Source: Mariniplasma anaerobium
Lineage (GTDB): Bacteria > Bacillota_I > Bacilli_A > Acholeplasmatales > Acholeplasmataceae
Length of the DNA stretch: 64,000 bases
Reading direction: 5' to 3'
Assembly (NCBI RefSeq): GCF_016865445.1
Contig: NZ_AP024412.1
Location: 1,736,001-1,800,000 of the forward strand
Position 1 is the stretch's first letter. Every line of letters starts with the position of its first letter. The notes under the pieces are model-generated. The model saw nothing but the letters and a program-made list of their open reading frames with translations. It had not been told where the DNA came from and searched no databases. Positions 31,823-55,000 of this stretch are shown here, one piece after another. A program made the translations under genes and the position numbers.

Positions 31823-32905
31823 TTAACTAAAATTATCAAATAATACATTGTCATCTTTCATATCATGATTCTTTAATACATTGATACAAGCTTTAATCAT
31901 ACCTGGAGACCCGCATAGGTAAGCTTCTGAATCACTTAAATCCTTAGTGTGTCTATCAACTACGTCAGTAATTAAACCAACATCACCTGTCCAATTATCT
32001 TCTTCAAGTGGTTCTGATAAAGCTGGAATATATTGAAAATTCGGAAATTCTTTTGATAACTGTTCGAATTCTTCTGTGTAATATAAATCTCTTTTTGATC
32101 TAGCTCCAAAGAAATATTTAACTTTTCGAGTCATCCCTTTGTCTCTTAATGCATATAATATAGAGCGTATAGGTGCTTTTCCTGATCCACCGGCGATACA
32201 AATCATATCCTTATTTGAATCCTCTCTTAAGAAGAAATCTCCATAAGGTCCTGTGATTATCATTTTATCTCCAACTTGCATTGCTTTATGAACAAATGTC
32301 GTTGCTTGACCATTTGGAACAAGTCGAATAATCAATTCAACTTCTGATTTGTTCTTTGGATCTGATGCAATTGAATAAGCACGAATAACATCAATACCTG
32401 GAACTTTTATTTGAACATATTGTCCTGGTTTAAAATCAATGTGATCAGGATCTAATAATTTAAATTTAACGAGCTTAATATCATATGTTAAGTCTCTAAC
32501 TTCTGATATTCTTGTCTTATATTCTTTTGCGTTTAATAAGCCTTTAGGTAAAACAATTTTCATATCTGTTTTAACTTTAACTTGGCATGATAATCTAATG
32601 CCTTCTTTTCTTTCTTCTTCACTAATAAATGCTTCTTCTGTAGGTTTAATCGTTCCATCTCCACCTACTAATCTAAATTTACAAAATCCGCATGTTGCTT
32701 TTCCACCACATGCAGATGGAATAAATATCTTTTCACTAGCTAAAGTATTTAATACTGTATCGTCACCCTTAACAGGTATCTTCGTATCATCATTAATAGT
32801 AATGACTTTTTCGCCACCACCACCTAATAATTTCTCAACTAAAATCAAGATAAAAGAGATGACTAATAATACACCAATTAATACTACAGGAAGTTCCCAA
32901 CTCAT
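31823..32905 (-). CDS. nqrF: Na+-NQR subunit F (NADH dehydrogenase flavoprotein)
   Basis: A 360-residue subunit, shorter than the usual 400 or so. Residues 5-25 are a membrane anchor. A 2Fe-2S ferredoxin domain follows with ligands C66, C72, C75 and C107 (ACGGKATCGFC...SC). The FAD domain has RAYSIASDP and the NADH domain has CIAGGSGKAPIRSIL and YLCGSPGM. It is the NADH entry point that feeds electrons into the complex. It is the last gene of nqrBCDEF, 18 bp after nqrE, with an AAAGGAG site. It is specific to NQR; the Rnf complex uses RnfB/RnfC instead. Confidence 0.92.
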   Translation of the reverse strand: MSWELPVVLIGVLLVISFILILVEKLLGGGGEKVITINDDTKIPVKGDDTVLNTLASEKIFIPSACGGKATCGFCKFRLVGGDGTIKPTEEAFISEEERKEGIRLSCQVKVKTDMKIVLPKGLLNAKEYKTRISEVRDLTYDIKLVKFKLLDPDHIDFKPGQYVQIKVPGIDVIRAYSIASDPKNKSEVELIIRLVPNGQATTFVHKAMQVGDKMIITGPYGDFFLREDSNKDMICIAGGSGKAPIRSILYALRDKGMTRKVKYFFGARSKRDLYYTEEFEQLSKEFPNFQYIPALSEPLEEDNWTGDVGLITDVVDRHTKDLSDSEAYLCGSPGMIKACINVLKNHDMKDDNVLFDNFS

Positions 32906-32923: not shown

Positions 32924-33496
32924 TTATACTAATCCAGTAAAGCCCATAAATGCAAGAGCTAAAATACCTAAAACGATAAATACAATTGCCTTACCTTGTA
33001 ATCCTTTAGGAGGATTACTAATTTTTGCCATCTTTTCTCTTAATCCTGCAACTAAGACTATTGCTAACATCCAGCCTACACCTGAACCAAATGAAAACGA
33101 TACAGTTTGAGCAAATGTATAGTCTCTATTAACAAAGAATAATGAAACAGCAAGTACAACACAGTTAACGGTAATTAAAGGTAAGAAAATCCCAAATGCA
33201 TTATACATTTTTGGAACAAATCTTTCCAAAAATATTTCTAATAATTGTACAACAGCTGCAATCGTAATAATAAATACAATTAAACTAATAAATTCAGTAT
33301 TAGTTGCAACTAATAATTTATAAATAGGATAATTGATCACTGCAGTTATTGTTACAACAAATACAACAGCAATACCCATTCCCTTAGCATTTTTAACACT
33401 TGTTGAAATTGCGATTAATGGACACATCCCTAAAATAAAGACTAGGGCAATATTGTTATTTAAAATCGATGATATAAATAGTTCTATAATATTCAT
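32924..33496 (-). CDS. nqrE: Na+-NQR subunit E
   Basis: A 190-residue integral membrane protein with six helices. The cysteines that share an intramembrane 2Fe-2S cluster with NqrD are kept: C25 (ILGMCPLIA) and C112 (LITVNCVVL). The motif YNAFGIFLPLITVNC and the later SFGSGVGWMLAIVLVAGLREKM are closer to NqrE than to RnfA. It lies 12 bp after nqrD. It forms, with NqrD, the inverted pair of half-channels through which electrons cross the membrane. Confidence 0.93.
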   Translation of the reverse strand: MNIIELFISSILNNNIALVFILGMCPLIAISTSVKNAKGMGIAVVFVVTITAVINYPIYKLLVATNTEFISLIVFIITIAAVVQLLEIFLERFVPKMYNAFGIFLPLITVNCVVLAVSLFFVNRDYTFAQTVSFSFGSGVGWMLAIVLVAGLREKMAKISNPPKGLQGKAIVFIVLGILALAFMGFTGLV

Positions 33497-33508: not shown

Positions 33509-34135
33509 CTATACGACAGTTTCATAATTTTTTGTAAGCTCTCTGATACCCCATATCATAAGTGCAATTACAAAGAAACCACCTGGCGCCATTGTCATAG
33601 CAACCCAATTAATCCAATTTGGCCCAACAACTCTAATATTTAAGAAAGTCCCAAACGCCAATATTTCTCTAACACTTGCGACTGCAATTAAAACAAATGT
33701 ATAGCCTAATCCACTAGCAAGTCCATCAATTAACGAATATTTAACTGGATTTTTTACTGCGAATGCTTCAGCTCGACCCATAACAATACAGTTAGTGATG
33801 ATTAATCCTACATATGCATCCAAAGAATCAGCAATTGTAGGGTAAAAAGCTTGTAAAACTAATTGAAAAATAATAACAAATGTAGAGATAATAACCATAT
33901 AGGTAACCATTCTTACTTTACCCGGAATAAAGCTTCTTAATAATGAGACTGCAGCAGAACTTGCCATCACAACAAATGTTACACCAATACCCATAGCAAT
34001 CGCGTTTTCAACTCTATTTGATACAGCCAAAGCAGAACAAATACCTAAAACTGCAATTGCAATCGGATTATTAGTAGCAATACCATCTTTTAAAATGTTA
34101 TACCATTTCTTATACTTAATTCGAATTAAATTCAT
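33509..34135 (-). CDS. nqrD: Na+-NQR subunit D
   Basis: A 208-residue integral membrane protein homologous to RnfE. Cluster cysteines C33 (LGICSALAV) and C116 (GLIITNCIVMGRAEAFA) are present. SFIPGKVRMVTYMVIIS is the NqrD form of the loop between helices. The N-terminal basic stretch MNLIRIKYKKWY is typical. It follows nqrC by 12 bp and precedes nqrE by 12 bp, as in standard nqr operons. Confidence 0.93.
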   Translation of the reverse strand: MNLIRIKYKKWYNILKDGIATNNPIAIAVLGICSALAVSNRVENAIAMGIGVTFVVMASSAAVSLLRSFIPGKVRMVTYMVIISTFVIIFQLVLQAFYPTIADSLDAYVGLIITNCIVMGRAEAFAVKNPVKYSLIDGLASGLGYTFVLIAVASVREILAFGTFLNIRVVGPNWINWVAMTMAPGGFFVIALMIWGIRELTKNYETVV

Positions 34136-34147
34136 TTAAATGGCCTC

Positions 34148-34738
34148 CTACTCATTCCGTGCTTGCCATAAAGCACTATATGTCTCATAATTTGTATTTA
34201 GAATAATTTCAAATGCATTAGATGTTCCTGTAGCTCCTGTAATTGCGTCTACTTCATAATCTTGTGTTGCACCCTCTTTAGTTATATCTAAACTTGGTGT
34301 CATTTTTTTACCTACAAAAGTCTCTAAGAAAGGTCTTTCAGCAACAATCCCACCTAATCCTGGTGTTTCTTCTTGTTGCAGAATAGTAATTCTAGCAATT
34401 GTTTCAAAGTCTGGTTCTAAAGTGATAATCCCGATGATTGGACCCCATAAACCACTACCTTCAAATTGATAACTAACTTTATTGCTAACTTCATCAACAT
34501 AAAATGTGTATCCGTCTATTACAATAATGTTAACTTCATCAGCGTAGATATCATGAATATTAGCAAAAGTATATTCGACATCAAATCCATCTAATACGGC
34601 TGATTTTAATTTAGCTTCACGATTCAACTCAATTCGATCTTTAGTTAGTGCGTCAGCGCCAAGTAATAATCCACTTGTGATTAAACCTAGTAAGACTACA
34701 AAAACAATTAGCTTAAGATTTTGATTCATCAAGTGCAC
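34148..34738 (-). CDS. nqrC: Na+-NQR subunit C (covalent FMN)
   Basis: A 196-residue subunit with one N-terminal membrane helix (about 8-28) and an outward-facing FMN domain. The covalent FMN threonine is T170 in DAITGAT, the exact sequence recognised by the ApbE flavin transferase. The ETPGLGG motif (124-130) and GSGLWGPIIG are characteristic. It is about 60 residues shorter than Vibrio NqrC and closer in size to RnfG. It overlaps nqrB by 26 bp. No apbE gene is in the window. Confidence 0.92.
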   Translation of the reverse strand: MHLMNQNLKLIVFVVLLGLITSGLLLGADALTKDRIELNREAKLKSAVLDGFDVEYTFANIHDIYADEVNIIVIDGYTFYVDEVSNKVSYQFEGSGLWGPIIGIITLEPDFETIARITILQQEETPGLGGIVAERPFLETFVGKKMTPSLDITKEGATQDYEVDAITGATGTSNAFEIILNTNYETYSALWQARNE

Positions 34739-35621
34739 CCTCTTTCTTTAATGCTCTATTTTCAAACATATTATCAATTAATGGTGCAACTGCACTCATT
34801 AATATAATTGCAAACATTGTCCCTTCTGGATAAGTTGCGTCAGAATATCTTATTAAAACTGTAATCGCTGCAATACCTAATCCATATAGAACTCTACCCC
34901 AATTGTGTATAGGTGCAGTTACTGGATCAGGAGCTATGAAAAATGAAACAAATAATAAATTCCCCACCAATAAAGCATAAAAAGCTATAGGAAACTTAGG
35001 AAATCCGAGTAATCTTCCAATAAAAACAAAAACAAACACACCACCAATAATTGAAAGTGGAATCTTCCAATCAATAACCTTTAAGAAAATTAAGATAACA
35101 CCAACAACCAAAATACCTAATCTAAAAGTTTCTCCTAGTGCTCCTGGTGTGCTTCCTAATAACATATCAACTATTGAATAAGTTGTTCCAACTTCATTTG
35201 CTCTAACCAACATGGTTGGGAAGAATTGAGGAAAAGAAACTGTAACAAATAATAATCCAACTAAAGCTGGATTAAATACGTATTTCCCACTACCTCCAAA
35301 TATGCCTTTACCAAAAAATGTACCAAATGCAGACCCAACTGCAACCATCCAAAAATATTTTATTTCTAGTGTGGAAGGTATGAGTAGCGTAAGCAATAAT
35401 GGATATATCATCCAAGCTCCATCAAAATCAATTTTTCTGCCCTTATGAAACATCAATTCTACAAGAAAAGCCGCTAATAAGGATATAGCCGCTACAAGTA
35501 AAACTTGATATCCATAAATAAGGGTTGACGATAAAACTAAAATAGATAACGCGATTGTCATAATCATGACATTTCTTTTATCTAGTGCTTTTTTAATCAC
35601 TGTTTCATAAGTTTGCGTCAT
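34713..35621 (-). CDS. nqrB: Na+-NQR subunit B, shortened, FMN loop apparently missing
   Basis: A 302-residue multi-pass membrane protein homologous to NqrB/RnfD. FGKGIFGGSGKYVFNPALVG (about 103-122) and LGSTPGALGET (about 155-164) are the family blocks. In NqrB the segment between them holds the S/A-G-A-T motif with covalently bound FMN; here only about 25 residues (PQFFPTMLVRANEVGTTYSIVD) lie there and no S-G-A-T is seen, the nearest being VGTT. The protein is about 100 residues shorter than Vibrio NqrB. It is the first gene of the operon; no nqrA precedes it. Either this is a derived NQR or the FMN site is highly diverged. Confidence 0.87.
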   Translation of the reverse strand: MTQTYETVIKKALDKRNVMIMTIALSILVLSSTLIYGYQVLLVAAISLLAAFLVELMFHKGRKIDFDGAWMIYPLLLTLLIPSTLEIKYFWMVAVGSAFGTFFGKGIFGGSGKYVFNPALVGLLFVTVSFPQFFPTMLVRANEVGTTYSIVDMLLGSTPGALGETFRLGILVVGVILIFLKVIDWKIPLSIIGGVFVFVFIGRLLGFPKFPIAFYALLVGNLLFVSFFIAPDPVTAPIHNWGRVLYGLGIAAITVLIRYSDATYPEGTMFAIILMSAVAPLIDNMFENRALKKEGALDESKS

Positions 35622-51925: not shown

Positions 51926-53227
51926 TTATATTTTGTATCTAATAGGAACGTCTTGATTAACTGAATATATAATTCTACGCTTCAGTCTATCAAAATTTTT
52001 AATCCCATTTGATGATTTGAGAATTGTTTTTACTTTAGAGTTAGTTTTCTCTATTTTACCGTTGGATAATCGTCTACCTTCAACTCTAATAAATGAATTC
52101 TTGATTTCTAATTTCCATTTATAAAGTGTTCTTCCAAAACTTCTAAATGCTGGATGATCAAAATGTCTAAACTCTTTAGTCAACTGCTCTAATTCAAGTT
52201 CACAGGTATCATAGAGAGCTGATTTATTGAAAGTTCTATAAGCTTCTTTTAATTTATATGCTTCATATAAGAGATCATCAATTGATAATAAATAGTGTAG
52301 AATATCTTCTTTTCTCCAATAGACGTTTAACTTAGCGATATGAATAGGTCCTGAATAGATACCCTCATAATCTCTTAGAAAGAAATAATGAAACTTCTTT
52401 AGCATATAGTAATACATGTCGTTTGCTTCTAAAGAAGAGGTGTGTTTATTGTATTTATGCATGACATCAAGTCTAATTTGTTTCATCGCTTCATTAAGTT
52501 GTTTGATGACATGAAATGAATCCACAGCGACTTTTGCTTTCGGAAAGGCTAGATTGATAACTTGCTTGTAAGAGTCCCACATATCAATTGTAAAGCCTTT
52601 AACTTGATCTCTTTCTACTTGAGATATGCGACTGAATTGCTCTATGAGATATCTTTTGTGTCTCGTTATATAGATATCAATGACTTTATTACTTTTAAAG
52701 TCAATAAGCATACAGGCATATTTATATTTAGATTTTTGTGATACATAAAATTCATCCATTGAAATATATGCAGGAAGCTTTAATCGTCTTGGTTGGACAT
52801 GGTAGTCAAATATATTTATCACGCTTTTATCTGATACATGATAAAGCTTTGATGCTGAAGCATATGTGTGTGTAGGATCTAATAGATATTCTAAGATGAG
52901 TGTTTTGGTATACATGCTAATAGATTCATAAGCAGATGAGAATGGATTAGGCTCATAATAGACATTACGACAAGTCTTACATCTATATCGTCTAGCTCTA
53001 TAAATGAGTATACATTTCCCGACTGTTGTAATACTGTGTGTAATATGTTTAATCTGGTAATCATGAACATATTGTTTTTCTGATCCACAAATCTTGCAAC
53101 TTATTTGTGAATCTCTTTTTAATTATATATATACATAAACATTTTGCCTTTCTTTTCTTAATGAAATCTCAGAAATCAAATGCCCTATGTATTCTAAATT
53201 TAAGAGTTCTATGATATCATGAATAAT
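51926..53227 (-). pseudogene. ISL3-family transposase with an in-frame ochre codon
   Basis: One continuous frame encodes the whole transposase except for TAA at 53125-53123. The N-terminal part before it includes IIELLNLEYIGHLISEIS, and a GGAGG site is placed for an ATT start at 53227 or 53224, with no in-frame ATG. After the TAA come the zinc-finger pairs CKIC and CKTC, with RARRYRC between them, then the ISL3 DDE domain (ISMDEFYVS, KGFTIDMWDSYKQVI, VDSFHVIKQLNEA) to the C-terminus. The lost start and the stop both argue for an inactive copy; the largest intact piece starts at ATG 52915. Confidence 0.85.
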
Positions 53228-53409
53228 GAAGTCCTCCTTTTCATTTAATTTAGGGTAGTAACTAAATTGTAACATGTAATGAGGGCTTCTTTTTTAAAAC
53301 CTTTAAGACCACAACCTATTTCATAGCCTATCTTATACCACAAACATTTTCATAGAACTTAAATAAAGGGGCTGTAATGAAATAAAATCATTATAGTCTA
53401 TAAAAACAC

Positions 53410-53441
53410 AAAACCACTCTGGAAAATCCAGAGTGGTTTTT
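53410..53441 (+). terminator. Insulating hairpin at the left end of the IS1182 element
   Basis: Perfect 13-bp stem AAAACCACTCTGG/CCAGAGTGGTTTT with a 5-base loop and a T-run lies 15 bp before the transposase start. It would stop transcription entering from outside, which is common in insertion sequences. Confidence 0.8.
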
Positions 53442-53455
53442 GATATAATTGAAGT

Positions 53456-55000
53456 ATGCAAAGTACTCAATTAACTCAATCTTATTTTAGCGCAAAACAA
53501 TTAAAATTACCACTAGAAATGAATATTTTAATACCATTTGATAGTGAAGTCAGAACATTTGACGAAGTATTTTCAAAAATCGAGGTTAAAAAATACTTAG
53601 TATCCAAATCTCATCAAGGTAGACTAGGATACAATTTAGTCAATATGTTGAAATTGGTATTGTTTTGCCAGATGGAAAAAATCCATAGTTTAAGAGCAAT
53701 GGAAAAGGCAGCTAAAAATGATATTAGGCTCATGTGGTTGACTAATGAGTTAAAACCAAGCCATAATACCATCAAAGAATTTATTAATACCCACTTAAAA
53801 ACATCCATCGAAGATATCTTTTTAGAGATCAATCAATATATCATAAAAAAAGAACAAATTGATATCAACACCTTATATATAGATGGGACAAAGATAGAGG
53901 CAAACGCAAACAAATATAAATTTGTTTGGAAGAACTCAATTCTTAAGTTTAAACAAAAACTTCAACTCAAAATTACCAAGACTCTGCACAAATTAAATGA
54001 AGACTATAAACATTTAGGCATCTACTTTCTGATCAAAGAAGATTATGAGATATCATATTTAGAAAAGATTAGAGATTTCTTAGTCAATGAAATTGACAAA
54101 GAAGGCATTGATTTTGTCTATGGCAAAGGGAACCACAAAAGTGGATTACAAAGAGATTATGAAGATATCGTAGACTACATAGAAAAACTAACAAGCTATA
54201 ATCATGATTTAGAGATCATAGGTCCATCAAGAAATTCATATGCAAGAACAGATCATGGTGCAACATATATGCGCATGAAAGACGATCATATGAGAAATGG
54301 TCAATTAAAGGCTGGATACAACATTCAAATTGGCGTGTCAGATGGATATATCATGCATATGGATGTCTATCAGAATCGAAGCGATTATAAAACATTAGAA
54401 CCATTTCTAGAAGGATTTAATCATAGCTATGGATTTTATCCTAAATATCCTGTAGCAGATGCTGGATATGGTGGACTTATAAATTATAGATATTTAAAAT
54501 CCAAAGATATGGAACTCTATCAAAAATATCCAATGTATAAAAAAGAAACCAGCAATCAGAACTATATAAATAGTCCTTATCGTGCAGAAAATTTCACTAA
54601 AGATAAAAACGGGAATCTAATTTGTCCAAAAGGACGAAAGATGAATTATCTATTTACAAGACACAATGGTAAAGATGTTTATGAGTCATCTACTTGTTTA
54701 AGATATCCGCTAGCTTCAAAGTGTAAAAAAGGGAAAGCTCCAAGACGTATTGAAGTCAATGAAGAATTATGGAACTATCAAAAAAAAGCAAGAGATAATC
54801 TTCAATCTGATTTAGGTATAGAACTTAGGATTCAACACTCAATTCAAGTTGAAGGCGCATTTGGGGTTTTAAAAGAAGACTTTAAATTTAGAAGATTTAA
54901 GCGACGTGGCATCCAAAATGTTAAATTAGAGTTTATGTTACTCTCAATTGGGTATAATTTATCAAAATATCATAACAAGCAACAACGATTCGTTCAATAG
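53456..55000 (+). CDS. IS1182-family transposase
   Basis: A 514-residue DDE transposase. The N-terminal DUF772-type domain starts near residue 40 (EVKKYLVSKSHQGRLGYNLVNMLKLVLF). Catalytic Asp residues are in TLYIDGTKIEANANKYKFVWK and PVADAGYGG, and the Glu in QVEGAFGVLKEDFKFRRFKRRG. The frame is complete and within family length. No Shine-Dalgarno sequence is visible before the ATG, which sits only 15 bp after a terminator-like hairpin, so expression is probably very low. It looks functional. Confidence 0.93.
   Translation: MQSTQLTQSYFSAKQLKLPLEMNILIPFDSEVRTFDEVFSKIEVKKYLVSKSHQGRLGYNLVNMLKLVLFCQMEKIHSLRAMEKAAKNDIRLMWLTNELKPSHNTIKEFINTHLKTSIEDIFLEINQYIIKKEQIDINTLYIDGTKIEANANKYKFVWKNSILKFKQKLQLKITKTLHKLNEDYKHLGIYFLIKEDYEISYLEKIRDFLVNEIDKEGIDFVYGKGNHKSGLQRDYEDIVDYIEKLTSYNHDLEIIGPSRNSYARTDHGATYMRMKDDHMRNGQLKAGYNIQIGVSDGYIMHMDVYQNRSDYKTLEPFLEGFNHSYGFYPKYPVADAGYGGLINYRYLKSKDMELYQKYPMYKKETSNQNYINSPYRAENFTKDKNGNLICPKGRKMNYLFTRHNGKDVYESSTCLRYPLASKCKKGKAPRRIEVNEELWNYQKKARDNLQSDLGIELRIQHSIQVEGAFGVLKEDFKFRRFKRRGIQNVKLEFMLLSIGYNLSKYHNKQQRFVQ

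Follow-up and report, generated by a model that had tools for sequence, protein, structure and literature searches.

A shortened FMN loop in the NqrB subunit of an NqrA-less nqrBCDEF operon from Mariniplasma anaerobium

We analyzed a window of 64,000 nucleotides from Mariniplasma anaerobium (assembly GCF_016865445.1, contig NZ_AP024412.1, positions 1,736,001 to 1,800,000). According to its open reading frames and their Pfam matches, it carries nqrB, nqrC, nqrD, nqrE and nqrF in this order on the minus strand, from 35621 down to 31823. The nqrB gene (34713..35621) encodes a membrane subunit of 302 aa with a shortened FMN loop (PF03116, E 5.3e-66), and is overlapped by nqrC (34148..34738), whose product has 196 aa from the listed GTG start and an FMN_bind domain (PF04205, E 2.1e-15). 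Downstream, nqrD (33509..34135, 208 aa) and nqrE (32924..33496, 190 aa) both match PF02508, and nqrF (31823..32905) encodes a 360-aa protein with a TM segment and the Fer2, FAD_binding_6 and NAD_binding_1 domains. There is no nqrA gene beside these five, so the locus belongs to the NqrA-less nqrBCDEF type rather than to the six-subunit Na+-NQR. It is not an RNF operon, as it consists of B-C-D-E-F with NqrF and not of a set holding RnfB and RnfC, and it shows no fusion of NqrB to an NAD-binding domain, since NqrB matches PF03116 only and PF00175 sits in NqrF. NqrF is also the only subunit above the NCBIfam equivalog cut-off (TIGR01941, 300.1 vs 295 bits); NqrB (132.6 vs 349.9), NqrC (76.2 vs 144), NqrD (210.7 vs 244.85) and NqrE (206.1 vs 247.55) all fall below theirs.

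The genome of the window (G000) is 1.9 Mb long and near complete, and has a separate Rnf cluster at C1:208500-216500 with RnfC, RnfD, RnfG, E, A and B followed by ApbE, where the names RnfC, RnfG and RnfB were assigned from reading the sequences. ApbE was found in all five genomes of the genus. In the four genus genomes that were read, an extra protein of 340-341 aa with two SGAT/GAS-like motifs lies between RnfG and RnfE (L031:4682-5704, L173, L174 and L175). The nearest named records with the same nqr operon are Acholeplasmataceae MAG SMBSF03 and Tenericutes bacterium MO-XQ. Regarding strain zrk7 (L042:2123-3789, the same as L085), nqrE appears truncated and two ORFs stand in place of a single nqrF, probably through sequencing frameshifts, or else because the operon is broken. 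Besides, two ORFs resembling transposases of different kinds, by reading, are found at 51926-55000 of the window.

The initial annotation had described the link between two conserved blocks of NqrB as some 20 residues too short, and had read this as loss of the loop bearing the covalent FMN. The stretch in question, 35150-35230, corresponds to residues 131-158 of the NqrB/RnfD-family protein, and the segment from FNPA to GETFRLG spans 54 residues, compared with 78 in the aligned V. cholerae stretch, so the estimate was a fair one. To place this length among relatives, we used an alignment of 101 distinct NqrB/RnfD rows out of 118, from which the truncated row L071 was removed afterwards. Rows with an intact loop have 65-88 residues in this segment, the truncated row and three loop-less rows have 22-36, and the loop of the window protein is about 14-15 residues shorter than those of close relatives. 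The deletion, of about 14 residues, is common to the five genomes of the genus, and the alignment shows no remaining D-x-x-[ST]-G-A-[ST] flavinylation motif in any of their NqrB proteins. Most NqrBCDEF relatives have a threonine in the loop, within an evident flavinylation motif that is typically D-A-[IV]-T-[SA]-A-T-P-L, and RnfD from the same five genomes retains its threonine within D[LIM]IAGGTALTA (row L080 for genome G002, plus the other four). The deletion is therefore real, and judging from the sequences NqrB of this genus has probably lost its covalent flavin, with one threonine at the deletion junction remaining as a candidate (see below).

The remaining subunits keep their cofactor residues, which bears out the earlier proposal that the loss is selective to NqrB. 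NqrC has its covalent-FMN motif, DAITGAT, of which the TGAT part (DAITGATGTSNAF) is encoded at 34229..34240 on the minus strand, and the FMN threonine is present in 106 of 108 NqrC rows (one Ser, one gap). Both cluster cysteines are kept in the NqrD and NqrE of the window, as they are throughout the rows (109/109 for NqrD and 105/105 for NqrE; these counts, like those of NqrC, take the best copy per locus, and some genomes are counted twice). NqrF has its FAD, 2Fe-2S and NAD modules, with the 2Fe-2S cysteines intact.

Some Acholeplasma-type genomes have a much longer NqrC, of 531-847 aa (L135, L138, L142, L063, L064 and L065), with several FMN_bind matches per frame in the copies of G015 and G028 (L063 and L064). 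Multi-FMN proteins have been described (PMC10339131, excerpts), and these long NqrC proteins may possibly be multi-flavin wires. A strict tie between loss of the NqrB threonine and a multi-FMN NqrC was considered and discarded: the two go together in L135 (847 aa) and L065 (531 aa), but the threonine is kept in L138, L142, L063 and L064, with NqrC of 656-675 aa.

We also looked at the second flavin of NqrB. In V. cholerae, riboflavin is held by G198, N200, T162, D346, A205, F342 and N203 (excerpts of PMC10643135 and PMC9325719). Two of these seven contacts are replaced by tyrosine in the window protein, T162 by Y73 (codon at 35403..35405, minus strand; contact described in excerpts of PMC10643135 and PMC9325719) and N200 by Y114 (codon at 35280..35282, minus strand; excerpts of PMC10643135), and the equivalents of D346, N203, A205, G198 and F342 are kept. 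Both substitutions occur in the five genus members. Of the 25 outgroup rows (Spirochaetota, Planctomycetota, Omnitrophota, Petrocella and others), 24 carry the full riboflavin signature, against 22 of the 62 remaining Mollicutes-side rows, 5 of the 8 RnfD rows and none of the five genus rows. Changes of this kind also occur outside the genus, since the T162 position is V, N or P in nine of the 62 Mollicutes-side rows and the N200 position is Y in eleven. Inside the clade we detected no association between riboflavin-site erosion and loss of the FMN threonine (Fisher p 0.30), and L140 and L067 have lost the threonine and retain the full riboflavin signature.

The overall fold of NqrB is predicted to be intact. 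The AlphaFold model of the window protein has a pLDDT of 86, compared with 89 for L091, a relative that keeps the threonine, and its best Foldseek matches are all NqrB/RnfD chains. Structure Z scores against such chains were 29-33 for the window NqrB and 31-38 for L091, with urea and ammonium channels following at around 13. The two models differ in the FMN loop, which has short strands and a pLDDT of about 85-87 in L091 and lacks such strands in the window protein, at about 67.

The threonine that carries FMN in NqrB is kept in 25 of 25 outgroup rows, 50 of 62 other Mollicutes-side rows and 8 of 8 RnfD rows, and in none of the five rows of the genus. Elsewhere in the alignment it is replaced by Asn in L135 (Haploplasma modicum), by Ile in L140, L066, L067 and L119, by Pro in L112, by Ala in L111 and L117, and by Ser in L108, and the whole loop is missing in L065, L068 and L069. 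We mapped this character on an NqrB tree of 98 rows built with the loop columns excluded (L148, L074 and the V. cholerae row left out). It requires 7 changes, at least 3 of them forced by starred branches, 6 when the genus and L108 are removed, and 5 when the three loop-less rows are removed as well. Because the tree was built quickly and has long branches, these numbers should be taken as approximate.

Four loci in this set have a tandem arrangement in which an NqrB-like protein and an NqrD/NqrE pair precede a full B-C-D-E-F set (L140:1917-9833, L066:3297-9824, L134:3065-9642 and L067:2-5039). In L140 and L066, the NqrB-like protein (947 and 496 aa, respectively) also includes fused FMN_bind domains, and the extra NqrD/NqrE pair of these two loci has no cluster cysteines.

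Next, we considered what the complex could reduce. None of the 61 relatives has an NQRA_N match above the cut-off (3 weak matches), and none has UbiA (PF01040) above it (3 weak matches; all 14 controls were positive). PF01040 is the family of MenA and UbiA and also covers non-quinone enzymes, so its presence says little, and its absence speaks against an endogenous quinone in these genomes. Among the genomes reached through the loci, UbiA was found in 27 of 42: 23 of 24 outgroup hosts (L124 not included), both Clostridia (L133 and L108) and 2 of 16 on the Mollicutes/Erysipelotrichia side (L097 and L112, of which L112 has lost the FMN threonine). The quinone argument is based on a single clade split and not on independent events. 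Moreover, 50 of the 62 Mollicutes rows keep the threonine though their order is without UbiA, so a missing quinone is not in itself enough to make the FMN of NqrB disappear. Cytochrome bd subunit I was found in two of the 61 relatives, both from another genus.

A search for extracytosolic partners returned single FMN_bind proteins in some genus members and no kind common to all five. The genome of the window encodes a 336-aa protein with a Ferric_reduct membrane domain and an FMN_bind domain with SGAT (L076:2914-3924), next to a two-component system (by reading) and two nearly identical tandem ORFs of 160 aa. Small proteins with an FMN_bind match and an N-terminal hydrophobic stretch were seen at L177:2277-3115, L179:1771-2613, L178:1928-2744 and L180:1635-2464, adjoining a flavodoxin-like ORF (by reading).

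One could argue that the short loop is an artefact of a frameshift, an assembly error or a decaying gene. We reject this as barely credible, given that the same deletion is present in five separate genomes, the operon is complete, and pairwise dN/dS of nqrB within the genus is 0.065-0.16, near the 0.037-0.20 of nqrC, which indicates that nqrB is under purifying selection. A more serious objection is that the FMN might have been kept instead of being lost. The initial annotation had pointed to VGTT (residues 144-147; 35181..35192, minus strand) as what was left at the motif position. This does not hold: VGTT aligns with the V. cholerae N252-ATGQT segment, about 20 residues past T236 (numbering checked against the printed sequence), and, against relatives, with the residues just ahead of D-Y-S, and its last threonine varies as T/T/N/D/D across the five genus genomes. 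On both grounds we discarded VGTT as a flavin site. The sole remaining FMN candidate is T136, at the deletion junction (FFPTMLVRAN; P135-T136 codons at 35214..35219, minus strand). If the deletion ended right at the acceptor threonine, T136 within FPTML..N, resembling ATPL..LN, could be flavinylated and electrons would continue from NqrC to NqrB. T136 is present in the five genus members, a profile HMM of 83 relatives puts it on the FMN-Thr column, and the helix after the FMN threonine in the L091 model (residues 147-152) has its sequence counterpart at 136-141 of the window protein. Besides, the motif is partly tolerant, with a minor effect of replacing its Asp, but flavinylation is halved by changes of its Gly and Ala (PMC12052999, excerpts). 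The HMM placement has, however, a low posterior digit of 4, and MAFFT sets T136 on a separate upstream threonine, that of M-x-T (Thr in 49 of the 83 relatives), leaving a gap at the FMN column; the deletion brings the two positions together. The residues at -3, -2 and -1 of T136 are F/Y, F and P, while in the 75 rows that keep the threonine F never occurs at -3 or -2, and P is found at -1 in a single row. These five genomes also have the altered riboflavin contacts, and overall we regard flavinylation of T136 as rather unlikely. We found no paper in the open-access literature naming an NqrB T236Y mutant.

Even without covalent FMN, NqrB might still take electrons from the FMN of NqrC through a non-covalent flavin or riboflavin, and pass them to an acceptor in the cytosol or to scavenged quinone. 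A hand-over of this kind has been proposed for two-subunit NQR/RNF-like complexes (Huang et al. 2024, PMC10979944, excerpts), and the predicted intact fold and the five conserved riboflavin contacts would suit it. The tyrosines at T162 and N200 put aromatic side chains at the contacts, though, the genus has no UbiA, and the operon has no NqrA/RnfC-like exit subunit, all of which make this route improbable in our opinion.

The absence of NqrA and UbiA from the 61 relatives, the altered riboflavin contacts and the repeated loss of the threonine in the clade make exit of electrons at NqrC the best available reading, and we lean towards it, with somewhat better than even confidence, for this NqrA-less, quinone-free nqrBCDEF. 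The initial annotation had suggested such an exit together with the selective loss. NADH would reduce the FAD and 2Fe-2S of NqrF, the 2Fe-2S cluster of NqrD/NqrE would carry the electron across the membrane, and the FMN of NqrC would receive it at the outer face, steps that follow from the conservation of the cofactor residues together with the pathway known for NQR (excerpts of PMC10643135 and PMC9325719). From there, electrons would leave to an extracytosolic acceptor. The return path from the FMN of NqrB to riboflavin and quinone is probably broken in the genus, because the FMN-presenting stretch is lost and two tyrosines stand at the riboflavin contacts. We infer that NqrB, without its flavin, is retained for scaffolding and docking, and possibly still as an ion path. 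More tentatively, and with rather less than even confidence, the quinone-free NQR of Mollicutes in general could be a one-way exporter of electrons from NADH to the outside through NqrF, NqrD/E and NqrC, with NqrB as scaffold, FMN lost some 5-7 times independently, and the riboflavin site also lost in this genus.

These operons would form a natural series that keeps NqrC, D, E and F and drops the NqrB flavins. Current models couple ion pumping to the flavins of NqrB (PMC10643135, excerpts), and the series could show which part pumps ions, whether NqrC can act as a terminal exit, and how fermenting bacteria that lack both a cell wall and quinones get rid of electrons. The consulted excerpts of a 2025 review describe the membrane cofactors of NQR and RNF as strictly conserved (PMC12174285), and those of a 2014 paper on evolution count both FMNs among the components of the enzyme (PMC4014512). 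As far as the excerpts go, NqrA-less nqrBCDEF operons and loss of the FMN threonine in two-subunit NQR/RNF-like systems are already in print; we found no report, in the open-access literature, of FMN-site loss in the nqrBCDEF of Mollicutes.

Compared with the Na+-NQR of V. cholerae, the operon described here shares the NqrB fold (Z around 32, rmsd 2.1-2.3 A over some 286 residues), the NqrC FMN motif, the NqrD/E cysteines and the NqrF domains, and differs in having no NqrA, no D-x-x-S-G-A-T in NqrB, the T162Y and N200Y changes, and no UbiA in the genome. The same B-C-D-E-F order without NqrA is known from Clostridium ultunense, Pseudothermotoga lettingae and Ca. Izimaplasma ZiA1 (PMC5924567 and PMC6256511, excerpts), and an acceptor other than quinone was suggested in the C. 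ultunense paper (PMC5924567, excerpts). The excerpts of those papers report no loss of the NqrB FMN site; in the operon described here, the loop is deleted, two riboflavin contacts differ, and the genome has no UbiA. A subunit resembling NqrB/RnfD without the conserved FMN threonine, beside a flavinylated NqrC-like protein, is described for the two-subunit NQR/RNF-like systems (Meheust 2021, PMC8238504; Huang 2024, PMC10979944; excerpts), for which one-way flow from NAD(P)H outwards has been proposed (same excerpts). In those systems, however, the NqrB-like subunit carries a fused NAD-binding domain and only two subunits are apparent in the excerpts, whereas the operon studied here has the full set of NqrC, D, E and F, and crossing of the membrane through NqrD/E would be possible.
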